A program made the position numbers and the translations under genes. Shown here piece by piece: positions 8,230 through 39,844 of a DNA stretch of 43,521 bases (positions are counted from its first letter, which is position 1; every line of letters starts with the position of its first letter). The notes under the pieces were generated by a model. It saw only the letters and a program-made list of their open reading frames with translations. It did not search any database and had not been told where the DNA came from. The DNA lies in contig PGZD01000016.1 of assembly GCA_002843155.1 (NCBI GenBank), positions 1-43,521 on the forward strand, written 5' to 3'. The DNA comes from Gammaproteobacteria bacterium HGW-Gammaproteobacteria-3 (GTDB taxonomy: Bacteria; Pseudomonadota; Gammaproteobacteria; Methylococcales; Methylomonadaceae).

Positions 8230-9314
8230 GCGATGGTTCGGCTCAGGCCGATGCGGTTTACATGGCGCGTGCGCTGAAACTGGCGCAACGAGGGCTTTAT
8301 ACGACCGACCCGAATCCGCGTGTCGGCTGCGTTCTGGTCAGGCAGGGCCAGGTCATTGCCGAAGGCTGGCATGTCAAAGCCGGTTGCGGTCATGCCGAAG
8401 TCGAAGCGTTAAAACAAACACCGGATGCGCGGGGCGCCACGGCTTACGTCACGCTGGAGCCATGCAGCCATCAAGGGCGCACGCCGCCTTGCTCTGACGC
8501 CTTGATTGCGGCGGGTGTGGCAAAAGTGGTGGTGGCCATGCAAGACCCTAATCCGCAGGTGGCAGGACTGGGTCTTGCCAAGCTGAAAGCGGCGGGTATC
8601 GATGTGCACTGCGGAGTTCTGGAAGAGGAGGCGCGGCGGCTCAATCCCGGTTTTATCAAAAGAATGCTGACGGGGCGGCCTTTTGTGCGCAGCAAGCTGG
8701 CGATGAGCTTGGATGGACGTACCGCCATGGCTTCCGGTGAAAGCCAGTGGATCAGCTCGGAGCAGGCCAGAGCCGATGTGCATCGGTTCAGGGCGCGGAG
8801 CGCCGCGATTATGACCGGCATCGATACGGTTTTGGCCGATGATCCGGCGTTGACGGCACGCATCGAACAAGCGGTCTTGCAGCCGGTCAGGGTGGTGCTG
8901 GACTCGCATTTGAGAATGCCGTTGACGGCGCGTATGCTGACATTGCCGGGGCGCAATGTCATTGTGACCTGCTCCCCCGAGTCGCCCAAAACAGCGTCCC
9001 TGCAAGCTTTGGGCGCAGAAGTGTACTGTCTGGAGGCGGAAAATGGCCGCCTCGCCTTGTCGTCAGTCATGGCTTTACTGGGTCGCCTCTGCATCAACGA
9101 AGTGCTGATCGAGGCGGGCCCAACTTTAAACGGCGCGCTGCTGGCCGGGACTCTGGTCGATGAATGGCTGATTTATATGGCGACCTGTGTACTCGGTGAT
9201 CGGGCTCGCGGCTTGTTCGCTGTACCGGACTTGGTGCGGATGGCGGATAAAAAGCAGCTAAAATTGCGCGATGTCAGGCAAGTTGGCCCGGATTTGCGCC
9301 TGATTCTGAATTGA
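8226..9314 (+). CDS. ribD: bifunctional riboflavin deaminase/reductase RibD
   Basis: RibD performs the second and third steps of riboflavin synthesis: deamination of the GTP-derived pyrimidine, then NADPH-dependent reduction of its ribosyl side chain. The N-terminal deaminase has the zinc motif HAEVEAL and [11 protein letters not shown]. The C-terminal reductase starts near residue 150 ([17 protein letters not shown]). It has 362 residues, as usual. ATG 8226 overlaps the nrdR stop by 4 bp. No FMN riboswitch is visible upstream of this or any rib gene here. Confidence 0.97.
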
Positions 9315-9365
9315 AGCGTAATCACGGTCGGCTAAACGCTTGTCTTTTTAGGAAATTAATTTTTT

Positions 9366-10016
9366 ATGTTCACAGGTATTATTCTGGCGCTTGGTGAGAT
9401 TGCGGCGATACAGATGAAATCCGGCGACTGTCGGCTTAAAATAGCCACCGGCAATTTGCCGATGGCCGATGCCCAAGTGGGCGACAGCGTTGCCGTGAAC
9501 GGCGTGTGCCTGACGGCGGTGGAATTGGGCGCCGATTATTTTTATGCCGATGTTTCCAATGAAACGCTGGCGCGTACGACCTTGACTACCCGGAAAATCG
9601 GCGCAAAAGTCAATCTGGAGCTGGCTCTGACGCCAACGACGCGGCTGGGTGGTCATATTGTCAGCGGTCATGTCGATGGTATCGGTAGAGTTGTCGATAA
9701 AGCAGCCGATGGCCGCTCTGTCCGGTTTCGCTTTAAAGCGCCCGATAATCTTGCCAGATACATCGCTGAAAAAGGTTCTATCTGCATTGACGGGATCAGT
9801 TTGACGGTCAATGAAGTCGATGGCGCCTTATTCGGCGTCAATATCGTTCCGCATACCTTGCAGAAAACCACGCTGGGCAATACCCAGGCAGGTGATAAAG
9901 TGAACCTGGAAGTGGATTTACTGGCCCGCTATCTGGAACGTCTGCTGCAAGGCGAGGCAGCGGCCCAATGCCGGGGCGGCGTAACGGAACAATTATTGAG
10001 AAACAGCGGTTTTTAA
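9366..10016 (+). CDS. ribE: riboflavin synthase alpha subunit
   Basis: This enzyme dismutates two lumazines to riboflavin. It starts MFTGII, the conserved N-terminus, and shows two lumazine-binding repeats. The first has GDSVAVNGVCLT; the second has GSICIDGISLTVN and VNIVPHTLQKTTLG. The 216 residues match the usual length (E. coli RibC 213). It lies between ribD (51-bp gap) and ribB. The symbol ribC is used for the same gene in E. coli. Confidence 0.97.
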   Translation: MFTGIILALGEIAAIQMKSGDCRLKIATGNLPMADAQVGDSVAVNGVCLTAVELGADYFYADVSNETLARTTLTTRKIGAKVNLELALTPTTRLGGHIVSGHVDGIGRVVDKAADGRSVRFRFKAPDNLARYIAEKGSICIDGISLTVNEVDGALFGVNIVPHTLQKTTLGNTQAGDKVNLEVDLLARYLERLLQGEAAAQCRGGVTEQLLRNSGF

Positions 10017-10021
10017 AACTA

Positions 10022-11137
10022 ATGAACAGCATTGAAGAAATCATTGACGATTTGCGTCAAGGCAAAATGGTTATCATCATGGATGATGAGGACCGCGAAA
10101 ATGAAGGCGATTTGGTCATGGCCGCGACTTTCGTCCGGCCCGAAGATATTAATTTCATGGCCCGTTACGGTCGTGGCTTGATTTGCCTGACCTTGACCCG
10201 TGAGCGTTGCCAGCAGTTGCGGCTATCGCTGATGGTCAATGAAAATAAAACACCGCATTCAACCAATTTTACCGTGTCCATCGAGGCTGCGACCGGAGTG
10301 ACCACGGGCATTTCCGCTGCGGACAGGGCGCGCACCGTCCAATGCGCGGTTGCCGTCGATGCCAAAGCGGAAGATTTGGTGCAGCCGGGACATATTTTTC
10401 CGCTCATGGCGCAATCGGGCGGTGTGTTGAACCGCGCCGGGCATACCGAAGCCGGCTGCGATCTGGCGCGTTTGGCAGGCGTTGAGCCCGCTTCGGTCAT
10501 CGTCGAAATTTTAAATGACGACGGCAGCATGGCGCGGTGCGCCGATCTTGAACGTTTTGCCGGGCAGCATGGTTTAAAAATCGGCACCATCGCCGACCTG
10601 ATTCATTACCGCATTCAACATGAAAATACGCTGGAGCGTATCAGCGAGTGCAACTTCCCCACCGAATTCGGCGATTTCAGGCTGTATGCCTATCAGGATT
10701 GTAATGACAACAAGCTGCATCTGGCTTTGGTGATGGGGCAGGTGTCAGGCGAAGAACCGGTTCTGGTGCGCGTACATGCGCGTAATTTGCTGGACGATCT
10801 GTTTGCTTCCACGCGTAACGAACACAGTGTTTCCCTGCGGGAAGCAATGCGTATCATCGCCGAAGCGGGACGAGGCGTTATCGTGGTGATCAGGCAGAAC
10901 GATGATAATAAAGCCCTGGTTGAACATATTCATCGCTATCAAATGCAGGATCAGGTCGTGCCGACCTCGACCGAGTTCGAGGCGGCGGGCGATTGGCGTA
11001 TGACCGGCACCGGATCGCGCATTCTGGCGGACTTGGGCGTGCGTCGGCTGAAAGTCATCGGTACGCAGAAAAAATATATCGGTCTGTCCGGATTCGATCT
11101 GGAAGTCGTCGAGTATGTAAGCAAAGAGACGGGTTGA
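10022..11137 (+). CDS. ribB: 3,4-dihydroxy-2-butanone-4-phosphate synthase with a degenerate RibA-like C-terminal domain (RibBX type)
   Basis: The N-terminal ~200 residues form a complete RibB: DDEDRENEGDL, HSTNFTVSIEA and RAGHTEAGCDLARLAG. It makes the four-carbon unit for lumazine from ribulose-5-phosphate. The C-terminal ~165 residues have the fold pattern of GTP cyclohydrolase II, but the zinc-binding cysteines of real RibA (C-x2-G-x10-C-x-C) are missing; the matching stretch reads VHARNLLDDLFASTRNEHS. This matches the RibBX variant described in Proteobacteria. A true ribA should be elsewhere. ATG 10022 (MNSIEEI) is chosen; an upstream ATG at 9968 in the same frame would overlap ribE by 49 bp. 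Confidence 0.9.
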   Translation: MNSIEEIIDDLRQGKMVIIMDDEDRENEGDLVMAATFVRPEDINFMARYGRGLICLTLTRERCQQLRLSLMVNENKTPHSTNFTVSIEAATGVTTGISAADRARTVQCAVAVDAKAEDLVQPGHIFPLMAQSGGVLNRAGHTEAGCDLARLAGVEPASVIVEILNDDGSMARCADLERFAGQHGLKIGTIADLIHYRIQHENTLERISECNFPTEFGDFRLYAYQDCNDNKLHLALVMGQVSGEEPVLVRVHARNLLDDLFASTRNEHSVSLREAMRIIAEAGRGVIVVIRQNDDNKALVEHIHRYQMQDQVVPTSTEFEAAGDWRMTGTGSRILADLGVRRLKVIGTQKKYIGLSGFDLEVVEYVSKETG

Positions 11138-11170
11138 AACCTGTCAAAATTATCGGAGTCAGAGAGTAAA

Positions 11171-11647
11171 ATGTCGGCAATAAAAATTTATGAAGGTCAT
11201 TTGTCCGTTCACGGAAGCAAGTTTTGTCTGGTGGCATCCCGCTTCAACAGCTTTATCGTCGAGCAGCTCGAAGCGGGCGCGATCGATGCTTTGGTGCGCC
11301 ATGGCGCTGAGCGTGACAATATTGCTCTGGTCAAGGCGCCGGGCGCGTTTGAGTTGCCGATGGTGGTGCAGCGCGTGGCCGCGAGCAAAAAATACGATGC
11401 GATAATTGCCTTGGGTGCTGTGATACGGGGTGGTACGCCGCATTTTGAATATGTGGCCGGAGAATGTGTGAAAGGCTTGGCCAGCGTTGCCTTGCAATAT
11501 AATGTGCCGGTCAGTTTCGGCGTGTTGACGGTCGATAGCATCGAGCAAGCGATTGAACGGGCAGGCACCAAAGCCGGTAATAAAGGCGCCGAAGCGGCGC
11601 TGTCGGCGCTGGAGATGGTGAGTTTGTTCAATAATCTGGATGCCTGA
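11171..11647 (+). CDS. ribH: 6,7-dimethyl-8-ribityllumazine synthase
   Basis: Lumazine synthase condenses the RibB and RibD-pathway products and forms capsid-like assemblies in the cytoplasm. The 158-residue protein has the family blocks [21 protein letters not shown] and [19 protein letters not shown] with the active-site His, then [15 protein letters not shown]. It lies 33 bp after ribB, and its stop overlaps the nusB start. The ribH–nusB order is common in proteobacteria. Confidence 0.97.
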
Positions 11648-12090
11648 TGAGTCTGGCTAAAACCAATGCCAGAAAAGCTGCGGTGCAGGCATTGTATCAA
11701 TGGCAGATGACAGGACAGGATCTCAACGCCATCGAACGCCAGTTTTTGGAAGAGGAGCGGCTGAAAGAAGCGCAAAAAAGTTATTTTGCCGCGCTGTTTC
11801 ATGGCGTCCCCCAATATCTTGACGCGATAGACGCGGCCTTGACGGAGTTTGTCGATCGGCCCGTTGAAAAAATCGACCCTGTCGAGCGGGCCATTTTGCG
11901 TATCGGCGTTTATGAATTGATACATCGCCTCGATATGCCTTACCGTGTCGTACTCAATGAGAGCATTAATTTAGCCAAATGTTTTGGCGCAGAAGGCAGT
12001 CACCGTTATGTCAATGGCATTCTGGACAAAGTGGCGCTGCGACAGCGGGCGCAGGAAATTGAAGCTAAAAAACGCAGTGCAAAGCCCTAA
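11647..12090 (+). CDS. nusB: transcription antitermination protein NusB
   Basis: NusB binds boxA RNA with S10 and supports rRNA antitermination. It has 147 residues, all-helical, with the typical KTNARKAAVQALYQWQMTG start and VERAILRIGVYELI core, and a basic C-terminal tail (KKRSAKP). ATG 11647 shares one base with the ribH stop. thiL begins immediately after its stop. Confidence 0.97.
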   Translation: MSLAKTNARKAAVQALYQWQMTGQDLNAIERQFLEEERLKEAQKSYFAALFHGVPQYLDAIDAALTEFVDRPVEKIDPVERAILRIGVYELIHRLDMPYRVVLNESINLAKCFGAEGSHRYVNGILDKVALRQRAQEIEAKKRSAKP

Positions 12091-34949: not shown

Positions 34950-35489
34950 TTTGATGTTCAAGTTTTGAATATTGAATATAAAGGCGAAAGCGATTACCGC
35001 TATTTAGTGGCCACCGATATGACTTGGCGCACAAGGGATATTATTCAAGCCTACACGTTGAGATGGCTTGTAGAGGTAAGCTTTGAGGACTGGAAATGGG
35101 GGCGTGAGGCCAAACAATTGGATGAAGAGGAATCAAGCCGTGGCCTGATCCTGAGTCTGTTGCTTGACCATTGCCGCCTCCTTCACCCCGAGCAGACGGC
35201 CCGCATAGAAAACAAACTGCCCGCGTATAGCGTAGGCAGCCTGCAAAGAAAATCGCAGATCGATGTGTTGCTGGAATTTATCAAAACCTTGTCAGAACAT
35301 CAGAACCCTGCGGATAAGCTCAAAGAATTGACCGGACTTGTTGCCGATGTTTTTCAGCTAATGCCTTCCGGCAAGCATAGGGTTGGGAGAGATTGGGTCG
35401 CATAGAACCGACGGCTTCGCTACAGTACCGAGCTGCTGGATGATTTTCCAAGAATCAGAATGCAATAAATTTAAAAACTTGAACATCAA
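34950..35489 (+). mobile_element. 540-bp deletion derivative of an IS4-like element
   Basis: The left end TTGATGTTCAAGTTTT (34951-34966) is exactly repeated in inverted form at 35474-35489. GTATAA occurs directly outside both ends (34944-34949 and 35490-35495), which is a 6-bp target duplication. Inside is only the C-terminal third of a transposase. The element is therefore a non-autonomous internal deletion that kept both ends. It sits in the 34815-35582 gap; 34815-34943 to its left holds only the RMD1 upstream region and a small AAACAG-TTTT-CTGTTT hairpin. Confidence 0.85.
34965..35405 (+). pseudogene. C-terminal fragment of an IS4-family DDE transposase
   Basis: The 146-residue frame starts almost at the left inverted repeat and lacks the part with the first two catalytic Asp residues. 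It retains YLVATD and the Y-(2)-R-(3)-E-(6)-K signature (YTLRWLVEVSFEDWK) that marks the IS4 family. The catalytic Glu is in that signature. It ends RVGRDWVA with a TAG at 35403-35405. It cannot be an active transposase by itself. Confidence 0.85.
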
Positions 35490-36550: not shown

Positions 36551-39500
36551 TCAAAATTTCGTTTTAACTGTTTTGAATGAGGCAATGAATAAAATCATGA
36601 AGAACAGCAATGTTAAGCGGGGCTCGTCAAACGGACTGTCGATCATGCCCACGACAAAAAAACCGGTCATCGATGACAACAAAATAGCGGCATAACCCTC
36701 CTGCTTGATCAGTAACTTGACCTGGTGTAAAAGCGCATAGATGAGTAATAGTGAAAAACCGACAATGCCCAGCCAGCCTTGTTCAAACAGCAGGGCCACC
36801 CAAATATTTTTTATGTGCCAGGGCAAATGGCTATCTGTCGAAAAGAACCAATGGTCGAGGTTTTCGGAAAAATCGCCATTGCGGATCAATTCTGAGCCTT
36901 CAGGGCCGATAAGACTTATTTTTTTAATATCGATGAGTGTCAAGCGTCCGCCGTTATAGAGGGACAACTTTACCGGTCGTGTTGGCCACTGACCCAAACT
37001 TTTATAGATTCCGGAACCTACGGTTTTGGTGTCGATGTCTTGTTCCAGCGTTTGCCATTGTCCCGGGTTTTGGCTTAAATCAAAGCTTTGCCAGACACAT
37101 CTGAAGCGATAAAGTAACGCTTTTTCGCAAACAGGGACGGACAATATTGCTTGGCCGACATGGCCGCGCGCGGTGATTTTAAGCAAATATTTTGTATCGG
37201 GGCGTACATCGATTCGCTGCTCCATGTACAAGGCGTCGCCCGACCCTAAACGCAAATAAGAAAAGCTTTGCTCACGGTTTAATGAATACGTTGCGGGCGT
37301 TATATTCTCGGAATTATTCCAGAAATAGGTTTTGGGATAAGCGCCTAACCCCATACCGAAGAGAGCCGTTGAAAAATCGGAAGTCATCATCCGATAGGCG
37401 TCCTGCCAATGCGCGGTTCTAATGCCAACGTCTTTATCTATCCGGTCAAAACGCGATTGCATATAGCTACCCTGTAAAATGGGCAGGGCTATGGCAACGA
37501 TAATCATCAAAAACAACGGAAGATAAATTATTTTTCGCCAATACGTATTGATATGTTTTCTGAAACTTACCAATAATCCCATTATTAACACCATTAATTC
37601 CAGAATAAAACCAAAATAAGGGCCTCTGGAAAAAGTCACCATCAAAGTATACAGTCCAGCCGTAAAAATAAGACACGCCAATAAGAGTCGTCCCGGTTTA
37701 TAGGTTTTTTCAATGAATAAAAGACTAATAAAAGGCAGACTCATGACCAGATATGCGTCAATATGACCGCCACCCGTATGCATACCGGAAAACAGCGAAG
37801 TGATACGATAGTCGGTGGTGTAATCAAACATACCGGGAAATAAAAACCGCTCCCAAACAGCAACCAGCGCAGTAGCGCCAAGTCCAATAATCATGCCGTA
37901 TGCAAAATAAAAACGGGCACGGGCATGGCATTGAAAAGTTTGTATTAACAAGGGCAATAACAACAGCCCTTCAATATAACCTTTAGCGACTCTCAAGCTA
38001 TTATAATGGCTGTAATAATTTGTAAAAGCATTGGCGTCAATAGTTTCTAAAGGTAACAAGCCTTTAAATAAACTAATGGCATAAATCAGTGTAAAGCACG
38101 CCAATAAAAAAAAAGCAACGGCAGAAAATGCCGGTTTTAATGATTGTTTGGTTTTTTTAAAAAAATAAAACGCCAGTGTCGTCAAAATAACCAAATCAAA
38201 TTCATCAAAAAAGAAACGGCCTGTCCAAGGGGCAAAATTCATCACCGGCAATAATGCCGGGACTACTATCAGCCAGGAAAAAGGAAAGCGCAGCAACAAC
38301 GCGCCATACAAAACAAGGAAAAGGGCCAATAAAATTGCGTCTACGGGGTATTGATAGAGCGCCCTGATAATGATTGCTAATAAAGCCAATGCAATCCAGC
38401 GACCTGTTTCACGAATTTCGTATCGAGGCGTCATGACAGGCGATAAATTTTGAATAGATGGAGAGGCAATACCAAGGTTGCCGGAATTGATAATTGAAGT
38501 TTGAGGGTTTTCAATGCCTTCAAAATGAACTCTTTTTGCACCAATACGCCAGTGCATCAATCGGTTTAAAAATAGATAAGTGCCGGCTGCTGCGACAAAT
38601 GCGATTAAAATATCGGTTGGGTCGGCATGTTTTCCGGCTAAAAATAATTTGCCGATTTCGATTAGTGTTGCAAAAACAGCCGCAGTCAATCCAACCGCCA
38701 AGGTACGCGTCTTATGGGCATTTTGGCTATTTAAAGAAAGCAGCCAAAACATCAGGCCAATAGGTAAATACGTTCCTATATTGCTCAGCAGGCTGACTAA
38801 AGCCACGCTTTCCGATGTGTAGTAAAAATAATACAGCGGTAAAAAATGCGTGTCTTGTAATTTAGTCAATGCCTGCCCGGCACTGAGCCAAGCGCTATTG
38901 AAGCCGCCGTTTATGGCCCAAACCAAAGTCATGTAAGGGACAATGGAGAATAACACCAGAGGCCGAAACAAGCGGGCCCAGTTTTTAAAGCTCTGTTGAG
39001 ATAGCCAGCCATAAAAAACGGCGCCGCCCGTTAGTCCTGTCATGCGCGTCAAAATCGAAATCCCTTGCGCCGAACCCGACACCAAAAACAACTGCACGCC
39101 TTCAATAAAAACACCCAGAAAAAAACCGGCTAAAAGATTTAATATCACTCTGTGCGTGACATAGGGCAAATAACCAAGCAGTATGCCTAACGGCAGCAAA
39201 ACCAATATTTCAGCGGAAAATTTAACGCCGCATCTCAGAGTATTTTCACGACATGAATCAAAGTTCATGAAATAATGATCGCTGTCCGCGTTTAATTTGC
39301 TCTCGAATTCTGTAGCGGAAGTTACAAAATCATAAGGAAAAAAACTGAGCGACACATAAGCCAGCAGATAAAAAATGATAGCCGCTTTGACCGAGAAAAA
39401 ACTGCCCAAAGAAATATGCCGATACTGCTCCAATAAATACCGGCCAAAGCTATGCCACAAAATAACGCCAATGCCAGTGCCGATGGTTTCGGCGATTAAA

Positions 39501-39844
39501 TCATTGAGGGATACGGTGCGCGGCGGGAAAAAAAGTTGAGTAAATTCAATAGATACTGCTACTGCCAGACAGAAGCAAACAACGCCGAAGAGGGCAAGGA
39601 GTCGGAGCAAAGGCTGACGTAAACTGTCAAACGTGGCCGATCCTAAAAAAGCCAAAGGTATATAAAGCAGGATATTCGCCACCCAATCCGCGCGTGAAGC
39701 AATACCTAAATTGAGATATTGAATATTTTTAAAGCGATTCAACGCCAGATCGAAAGGTATCGGCCTGAAATCAAGAGGCACCAGGCTGCCGTAGGTCACA
39801 AACAGCAAGTACAATAGGGCTGCGTAAAAAAAAGACGGGGTCAT
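36551..39844 (-). CDS. three VanZ-like modules fused to an O-antigen ligase/polymerase-type module
   Basis: This 1097-residue integral membrane protein starts with three VanZ-like repeats (about 1-150, 155-290, 300-435). Each ends in a recognisable block: IEFTQLFFPPRTVSLNDLI, IEGVQLFLVSGSAQGISIL and IEIGKLFLAGKHADPTDIL. After a linker (440-480) comes a multi-helix O-antigen ligase (Wzy_C) type region (about 480-835) with FSRGPYFG and the GIRTAHWQDAYRMM…GMGLGAYP loop. A soluble domain (about 850-1005) looks like a beta-sandwich sugar-binding module (RNGDFSENLDHWFF), and two to three helices close the protein. It may handle a surface polysaccharide. The DNA looks more AT-rich than the genes around it. 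Nothing in the neighbourhood fixes the substrate. Confidence 0.85.
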   Translation of the reverse strand: MTPSFFYAALLYLLFVTYGSLVPLDFRPIPFDLALNRFKNIQYLNLGIASRADWVANILLYIPLAFLGSATFDSLRQPLLRLLALFGVVCFCLAVAVSIEFTQLFFPPRTVSLNDLIAETIGTGIGVILWHSFGRYLLEQYRHISLGSFFSVKAAIIFYLLAYVSLSFFPYDFVTSATEFESKLNADSDHYFMNFDSCRENTLRCGVKFSAEILVLLPLGILLGYLPYVTHRVILNLLAGFFLGVFIEGVQLFLVSGSAQGISILTRMTGLTGGAVFYGWLSQQSFKNWARLFRPLVLFSIVPYMTLVWAINGGFNSAWLSAGQALTKLQDTHFLPLYYFYYTSESVALVSLLSNIGTYLPIGLMFWLLSLNSQNAHKTRTLAVGLTAAVFATLIEIGKLFLAGKHADPTDILIAFVAAAGTYLFLNRLMHWRIGAKRVHFEGIENPQTSIINSGNLGIASPSIQNLSPVMTPRYEIRETGRWIALALLAIIIRALYQYPVDAILLALFLVLYGALLLRFPFSWLIVVPALLPVMNFAPWTGRFFFDEFDLVILTTLAFYFFKKTKQSLKPAFSAVAFFLLACFTLIYAISLFKGLLPLETIDANAFTNYYSHYNSLRVAKGYIEGLLLLPLLIQTFQCHARARFYFAYGMIIGLGATALVAVWERFLFPGMFDYTTDYRITSLFSGMHTGGGHIDAYLVMSLPFISLLFIEKTYKPGRLLLACLIFTAGLYTLMVTFSRGPYFGFILELMVLIMGLLVSFRKHINTYWRKIIYLPLFLMIIVAIALPILQGSYMQSRFDRIDKDVGIRTAHWQDAYRMMTSDFSTALFGMGLGAYPKTYFWNNSENITPATYSLNREQSFSYLRLGSGDALYMEQRIDVRPDTKYLLKITARGHVGQAILSVPVCEKALLYRFRCVWQSFDLSQNPGQWQTLEQDIDTKTVGSGIYKSLGQWPTRPVKLSLYNGGRLTLIDIKKISLIGPEGSELIRNGDFSENLDHWFFSTDSHLPWHIKNIWVALLFEQGWLGIVGFSLLLIYALLHQVKLLIKQEGYAAILLSSMTGFFVVGMIDSPFDEPRLTLLFFMILFIASFKTVKTKF

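Follow-up and report, generated by a model that had tools for sequence, protein, structure and literature searches.

We analysed a stretch of 43,521 nucleotides from Gammaproteobacteria bacterium HGW-Gammaproteobacteria-3 (contig PGZD01000016.1), hereafter the window, which carries a complete gene with an ATG start at 36551..39844 (-). The encoded protein of 1097 residues is arranged as VanZ-VanZ-VanZ-linker-WaaL-like ligase, and the ligase bears an insert resembling a carbohydrate-binding module (CBM). A preliminary description of this DNA had proposed three VanZ-like modules fused to an O-antigen-ligase-type protein with an extracytoplasmic sugar-binding-like domain near the C-terminus, and all three parts were recovered by profile and structure searches. 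The motifs that it had named, IEFTQLFFPPR, IEGVQLFLVSG and IEIGKLFLAGK, are all present in the translation. The gene represents a real, conserved multi-domain protein family that is built from known parts.

Three VanZ modules at the N-terminus

Pfam was run on the whole chain and separately on the pieces 1-146, 147-292, 293-440 and 475-1097. The whole protein matched VanZ (PF04892) at 69.7 bits in three stretches, and NCBIfam vanZ_1 at 30.9 against a cut-off of 20. Taken alone, module 1 (residues 1-146; 39407..39844 (-)) scored 58.7 bits (E 1.2e-15), above the Pfam cut-off of 30.1, and module 2 (residues 147-292; 38969..39406 (-); E 1e-6) and module 3 (residues 293-440; 38525..38968 (-); E 1.8e-6) fell just below it with 29.8 and 29.0 bits. 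In profile-profile alignment with hhalign, module 1 matched both of the others, with E 3.5e-6 for module 2 and E 6.3e-8 for module 3. The direct comparison of modules 2 and 3 was weak (E 0.0096), and nine comparisons between the modules and segments of the ligase half all gave E 0.019 or worse; the ligase segments overlap by design, and two of their three mutual comparisons score well, so these are not usable as controls. On these profiles, modules 2 and 3 are homologous to module 1 despite their Pfam scores below the cut-off. The VanZ-like character of residues 155-435, on which the preliminary description depended, thus holds by two profile methods that cover residues 147-440, the fold prediction being too weak to decide.

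Conservation was followed in 34 proteins picked by their coverage of the triple-VanZ profile, a set that includes the near-copies L027/L028 and L089/L090 (L numbers denote fetched loci, G numbers genomes). Among them, 21 are linked to a ligase and seven are fused to a heparinase-like domain, five of these confirmed by Pfam and two (L083_07 and L090_00) assigned by length only. The equivalence of sites between modules was taken from the profile-profile alignment. All six polar residues probed in module 1 (D53, N57, E100, Q103, R109 and D115) are invariant (34/34), and they include the complete active-site set of H2 Asn, H3 ExxQ and H4 Asp (N57, E100, Q103 and D115). Module 2 lacks the full VanZ-1 set, having E212 at the canonical Asn and S263 at the canonical Asp; its own invariants E212, E248, Q251, S263 and R267 are present in 21/21 ligase-linked proteins and are looser in the heparinase-fused ones, not all of which have E248 and Q251. 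Module 3 retains E396 in 34/34 and D408 in 32/34 proteins, its H3 motif reads ExxK instead of ExxQ in 20/21 ligase-linked proteins, and the counterparts of the H2 Asn (N355) and the H4 Asp (D411, three places downstream of D408) are Asn in 14/34 and Asp in 15/34.

Of the three modules, only module 1 has the full VanZ-1 set, and this favours the idea that modules 2 and 3 do not work as ordinary active sites. The preliminary description had stated that both had lost polar residues of module 1 and may be structural. Members of the canonical set are indeed lost, but each module keeps conserved polar residues of its own (E212, E248, Q251, S263 and R267 in module 2; E396 and D408 in module 3), which a structural role leaves unexplained, and for this reason the label merely structural is unproven.

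In the whole-protein model, each VanZ module is built of four long helices, the first and second of which are separated by a short one (residues 31-39, 177-185 and 322-331); confidence in this part is low. A fold search with a separate model of the triple-VanZ part returned photosystem subunits in the top rows, with Z of about 7-8, a level that is uninformative for helical models. Human PSS1 (9b4e), a solved lipocone, appeared at rank 14 with Z 5.9 and a root-mean-square deviation (rmsd) of 2.3 over 71 residues, which is below the meaningful level for such models.

An O-antigen-ligase fold with a CBM-like insert

The VanZ part is joined to the rest of the protein by a linker of low confidence (residues 441-474; 38423..38524 (-)), with predicted local distance difference test (pLDDT) values below 50 at residues 435-475; this is the region at which the gene is split in the relatives L002, L035 and L039. 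The remaining half (residues 475-1097; 36554..38422 (-)) matched Wzy_C (PF04932) at 33.7 bits (E 3.8e-8; cut-off 31.7), and the profile match covers residues 727-839 (37328..37666 (-)). VIA-align superposed the model of this half (residues 515-1094) on the cryo-electron microscopy structure of WaaL (7tpg_B) with Z 20.0 and rmsd 5.6 over 366/403 residues, so that the O-antigen ligase fold expected of the C-terminal half was found. The rows that follow in this search are mostly CBMs and other beta-sandwich proteins aligned on the insert (Z 9-12), the next row being a CBM at 12.1. After the VanZ part the model has about fourteen long helices, which we read as membrane helices.

The beta-sandwich interrupts these helices at residues ~850-1002 (36839..37297 (-)), in what would be a large periplasmic loop. 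Its assignment as a CBM4/6-like domain draws on modelled strands, Foldseek, VIA-align and a sequence profile. In structure searches it matches CBM4/6/16/36 folds; Foldseek aligned 3p6b, 1gui and 2zey to the insert with probability 1.00, and CBM4 and CBM16 structures stood near the top, with a best E of 2.1e-3. No Foldseek match was below 1e-3, and WaaL was absent among the 50 matches shown. The sequence profile of the ligase family matched the CBM of 4mgq (E 2.2e-5) and found no WaaL chain among the structures, and the Pfam scan of residues 475-1097 gave no family for the insert. Between the insert and the next membrane helix, the alignment shows an H1010-x-x-N1013 motif (36806..36817 (-)).

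Fusions, splits and other partners in the family

Homologues were sought in 61 genomes, comprising the window's own and 60 relatives, and in a class-wide sample of 369 genomes. Some match was present in 24/61 genomes, and in 15/61 (G000, G005, G009, G010, G011, G014, G023, G024, G035, G036, G041, G055, G057, G058 and G060) both halves occur fused or as neighbouring genes. The pair is split into adjacent genes in G009 and G035 and is fused in the rest of the 15. The two halves are overlapping genes in Desulfobacula (L002) and separate convergent genes in UBA2780 (L003). The occurrence of the halves as separate neighbouring genes in Desulfobacula, G009 and G035 makes this a good Rosetta-stone case.

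In the class sample, a triple-VanZ unit was called when a match spanned about 400 or more of 440 positions, and two first-look candidates were scored per genome, so that the counts are lower bounds. The unit is present in at least 23/369 genomes from 14 families, with at least 10 full fusions. It is not tied to the ligase: in L082, L083, L087, L089 and L042 it is fused to a heparinase II/III-like domain recognized by Pfam, in some class genomes it stands alone, and a further neighbour is a beta-helix protein. These heparinase-like and beta-helix partners and neighbours are, judged by family, of polysaccharide-acting kinds. Genes were called by a simple longest open reading frame (ORF) rule, which took the wrong strand in L088, so that the fifth long protein is a spurious ORF without a family.

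A tree of 37 triple-VanZ sequences grouped the window gene with eight other ligase-linked genes at 100/100 support, seven of them from its own family and one from a Methylococcales genome. The best tree explains the partner types with six changes, where shuffling gave a mean of 12.2, and the well-supported branches force only one or two changes per type. Re-pairing of the triple-VanZ unit with its partners is therefore likely.

Several further loci add to the variety of the family. A relative of the ligase half in G002 (L040:8161-12579(+)) has a C-terminal right-handed beta-helix and lacks VanZ. G396 has a tandem of triple-VanZ proteins, each about 1200 residues long (L083:4773-8522 and 8552-12085); Pfam confirmed a heparinase-like C-terminus only in the first of them. 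A triple-VanZ-heparinase gene in G259 (L089:280-7640) has, directly upstream on the same strand, an asparagine-synthase-like gene and a gene with an exosortase match. In G003, an 803-residue protein (L025:376-2787(-)) has three VanZ stretches (Pfam 3.7e-31), and no Pfam family was matched by its other half. The homologue of Methylomonas koyamae (G011; L001:5989-9264) lies outside its own family's VanZ clade and has a guanine-plus-cytosine (GC) content 8 points below its flanks; genes for an APS kinase and, with a match below cut-off, a DHH-like protein are close by, and the homologue was possibly acquired by transfer.

Association with exosortase systems

Several relatives have genes of exopolysaccharide synthesis in the neighbourhood. 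Directly downstream of the gene, four loci (L005, L030, L032 and L035) encode first a protease of the trypsin-like type and next a sugar transferase of the EpsB type. The EpsB of L005 scored 561 bits with TIGR03013, a family of the XrtA/PEP-CTERM system whose cut-off is 393, and those of the other three loci were identified as BLAST relatives. A UDP-glucose 4-epimerase is among the neighbours in L030, and in L032 (G024) the genes for PrsK, PrsR, exosortase, EpsB, the protease, the triple-VanZ protein and a glycosyltransferase-like protein lie within about 13 kb. Neither the protease nor EpsB was found in the surroundings retrieved for other relatives, L027, L028, L029 and L031 among them. The protease gene was found in 17/50 fetched loci, some of which are not centred on the triple-VanZ unit, by a profile that was itself built from 9 of the 17 genes.

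Co-occurrence extends this link to the class. With an exosortase called at E 1e-15 or better, 22/23 triple-VanZ genomes have an exosortase (the exception being G112) compared with 95/346 others (Fisher 4e-11), and 22/23 have EpsB by TIGR03013 (the exception being G259, which is 64% complete) compared with 101/346 (1.4e-10); these Fisher values overstate independence, as the genomes are related and 14 families carry the unit. Twelve genomes have both the unit and an exosortase on one contig: in 11 the nearest exosortase is 4-101 kb away, a closeness partly forced by short contigs (G130 and G259), and in G010 it is about 1 Mb away.

The exosortase link of the triple-VanZ unit is new, as is the candidate partner protein described next. 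The literature searched yielded no paper naming both VanZ and exosortase, and papers found on VanZ with heparinase were unrelated by title and abstract.

A small secreted protein often found with the VanZ unit

The members of a small protein family, here called c1, are ~140-150 residues long. They begin with what resembles a signal peptide and share conserved Cys, Trp and VDP residues, and scans of Pfam and NCBIfam assigned them to no family. Examples that track the triple-VanZ unit lie, among others, at L029:12050-12511(-), L036:11157-11573(+) and L082:12600-13019(-). The sole lead to an identity was a lipocalin-like match in one member, below threshold (E 0.07). Among the 61 genomes, c1 occurs once per genome in 12, all within the 15 pair genomes (Fisher 2.6e-10), and adjoins the pair in 8/12. 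The pair genomes without it are the window's own, in which no match appeared even at E 10, G011 and G024 (76% complete).

In the class sample c1 was found in 9/369 genomes, eight of them with the triple-VanZ unit and the ninth with a marginal match (E 8e-4); 15/23 triple-VanZ genomes are without it. It adjoins the unit in G301, lies about 2 kb off in G396 and is elsewhere in the other six. All nine genomes have an exosortase, and within exosortase genomes alone the link between c1 and the triple-VanZ unit holds at p 3.7e-6. In five genomes with c1 and the unit (three of one genus), no relative of the ligase was detected, and the positive controls matched in 4/4 cases. By this distribution, c1 appears to accompany the VanZ unit and not the ligase.

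In G010 (L105:8456-9830), an HDOD gene 50% identical to that of the window is followed by c1, which converges on it from the position occupied by the ligase gene in the window and with the same orientation as that gene. This arrangement suggests that c1 and the ligase gene once stood side by side next to the HDOD gene and that the window lineage lost c1.

The gene in its own genome

The window gene lies between a convergent HDOD gene and a divergent hypF, and the 98-base gap downstream of it is too short for c1. The preliminary description had noted that the gene stands alone, which holds for the window genome but not for several relatives, where it belongs to an exosortase-type exopolysaccharide cluster. 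In the window genome, contig C86 carries adjacent genes for EpsB, the trypsin-like protease and a GalE-like protein, and contig C76 carries an exosortase gene. About 1.1 kb past the 3' end of the gene, a DDE transposase-like fragment at 34965-35405(+) (PF01609, E 0.002, 18.3 bits, cut-off 23) may mark a rearrangement.

The gene is AT-rich, as had been noticed earlier: its GC content is 43.1% against 51.3% for the remaining window, 8 points lower. In 20 homologous loci, the GC difference to the flanks has a mean of +0.002 (standard deviation 0.040). Recent transfer from a distant donor was rejected as the cause of the AT-richness because the VanZ tree seats the window gene within its own family's clade (100/100).

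Scans for regulatory sites gave little. The upstream gap contains no sigma-54-type site, and the 40 matches in the window (up to 2 mismatches) are no excess over any of 100 shuffles (mean 57.9); a sigma-70 promoter scan gave 6 matches compared with 7.3 in shuffles. Terminator-like sites numbered 9, with 5.0 (standard deviation 2.3) expected from shuffles.

Proposed function and alternatives

We think that the protein is probably an inner-membrane assembly enzyme for exopolysaccharide linked to the exosortase (PEP-CTERM) system. In this proposal, the C-terminal half would be a WaaL-type glycosyltransferase at the periplasmic face, detaching a glycan from its polyprenyl-diphosphate carrier and transferring it to an anchor or to another sugar chain, with the CBM-like domain in the large periplasmic loop holding the acceptor or the growing chain beside the active site. 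The triple VanZ unit, of the lipocone type, would handle the lipid carrier: module 1, likely catalytic, would act on the phosphate head group, in carrier release or exchange, and modules 2 and 3, as diverged copies, would complete the cavity and possibly bind ligand. The physical linkage of VanZ and ligase, as a fusion or as the split pairs of Desulfobacula, G009 and G035, suggests that they act on the same lipid-linked glycan, an idea already raised in the preliminary description. The domain content, the ligase and CBM folds of the model, the conserved residues, the fused and split pairs, the neighbours and the co-occurrence were observed directly. The chemistry leans on a published prediction (PMC12419801), and we infer the membrane topology, the substrate, the direction of transfer and even that VanZ is an enzyme at all.

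A number of results weigh against this proposal. The whole-protein model is of moderate confidence (pLDDT 67.8, predicted template modelling score 0.52, from a nine-sequence alignment), the separate triple-VanZ model is weaker (62.3), and a profile search of structures gave no credible solved relative of VanZ. The whole-chain Pfam scan listed VanZ as the sole family and did not reach Wzy_C. The His of the H-x-x-N motif is kept in 11/13 aligned full-length homologues and is Asn in the other two, which is awkward for the canonical WaaL mechanism, in which a His and an Arg of the periplasmic loop are essential, if H1010 is the counterpart of that His. The window gene is apart from the exopolysaccharide cluster, EpsB and exosortase being on other contigs. 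Among the 61 relatives, the association with exosortase is weaker than in the class sample (14/15 pair genomes compared with 26/46 others, p 0.011), and the pair and the exosortase are far apart in several genomes. Only 22/117 exosortase genomes of the class carry the triple-VanZ unit, so the exosortase system does not need it, and their co-occurrence may come partly from shared lifestyle and ancestry.

The inconstant His would also suit a Wzy-like chain polymerase, and we give an unlikely but appreciable place to the explanation that the C-terminal half is such a polymerase and the triple VanZ a non-catalytic scaffold docking it and periplasmic enzymes to the export machinery. A scaffold would be expected to be fused to differing polysaccharide-acting domains (ligase-fold or heparinase-like) or to stand alone, as the VanZ unit does, and to do without the full active-site set that modules 2 and 3 lack; but the invariance of six polar residues in module 1 seems to exceed what a scaffold needs, and the ligase-linked members have kept conserved polar positions in modules 2 and 3 as well. 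The confinement of c1 to pair genomes and its frequent adjacency to the pair bring in a protein O-glycosylating ligase of the PglL type, with c1 or PEP-CTERM proteins as acceptor, for ligases and their acceptors are often encoded by neighbouring genes. We regard this as quite improbable: five genomes have c1 with the triple-VanZ unit and no detected ligase relative, the partner of c1 looks to be the VanZ unit, and neither the window genome nor Methylomonas koyamae has a match to c1.

That the window copy was recently acquired or is decaying, without a current role in this genome, could be read from its low GC content, the absence of c1 and the nearby transposase-like fragment. The reading frame, however, is full-length and uninterrupted, with zero stops, the invariant residues of the family are retained, and the VanZ part groups in the 100/100 clade of nine ligase-linked genes, which leaves little room for this explanation, the least probable of those considered. 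A broader idea, which we hold to be a long shot, is that many exosortase systems include the triple-VanZ unit as a component so far overlooked. Head-group exchange by the lipocone would then make or free the lipid- or glycan-linked anchor to which PEP-CTERM proteins are joined by exosortase, c1 would be the unit's dedicated partner in the periplasm, and the ligase or lyase fused to the unit would tailor the same glycan. If true, this would provide bacterial exosortases with their missing acceptor step. Independently of this broader idea, the exosortase link gives the pathway a candidate membrane component, and c1 is a candidate partner; neither was found in the literature searched.

Comparison with known systems

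With the exosortase/PEP-CTERM system (PMC1569441) the family shares its neighbours EpsB (TIGR03013), PrsK, PrsR and exosortase in some relatives and a strong co-occurrence in the class, whereas the window copy is outside such a cluster. A term search of the main text of PMC1569441 returned none of VanZ, ligase, O-antigen and heparinase. An identity with IctB (TIGR00947), a putative bicarbonate transporter, was rejected, the NCBIfam match being weak (residues 697-821, 28 bits against a cut-off of 366).

Like WaaL and other Wzy_C proteins (PF04932; 7TPG), the C-terminal half has a Pfam match above the cut-off and the corresponding fold, but it differs from WaaL in its CBM-like loop insert, its N-terminal triple VanZ and the non-universal His of its H-x-x-N motif. 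The insert resembles CBM4/CBM6/CBM16-type modules in its beta-sandwich fold and in the sequence profile match to the 4mgq CBM; unlike these, it sits within a loop of a membrane ligase and has no Pfam CBM match.

VanZ was found with vancomycin-resistance genes, where its role has stayed unexplained according to the passages of PMC12419801 consulted. In these, VanZ-1 of the lipocone superfamily is predicted to act on the head groups of lipid-linked glycans, links to WaaL-like enzymes are noted, and a VanZ duplication is described in which the second copy is inactive; the same passages of the main text mention no triple VanZ, exosortase link or heparinase fusion, and the supplements may list fusions. 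The protein described here agrees with VanZ (PF04892) and VanZ-1 in that each module matches the family, module 1 holds the H2 Asn, H3 ExxQ and H4 Asp, and the short helix modelled with low confidence between the first two helices resembles the 'handle' described in those passages (PMC12419801). It differs in having three modules per chain, each diverged in its own way, and its natural fusion of VanZ to a ligase fold makes the published prediction of VanZ action on lipid-linked glycans testable in one polypeptide.

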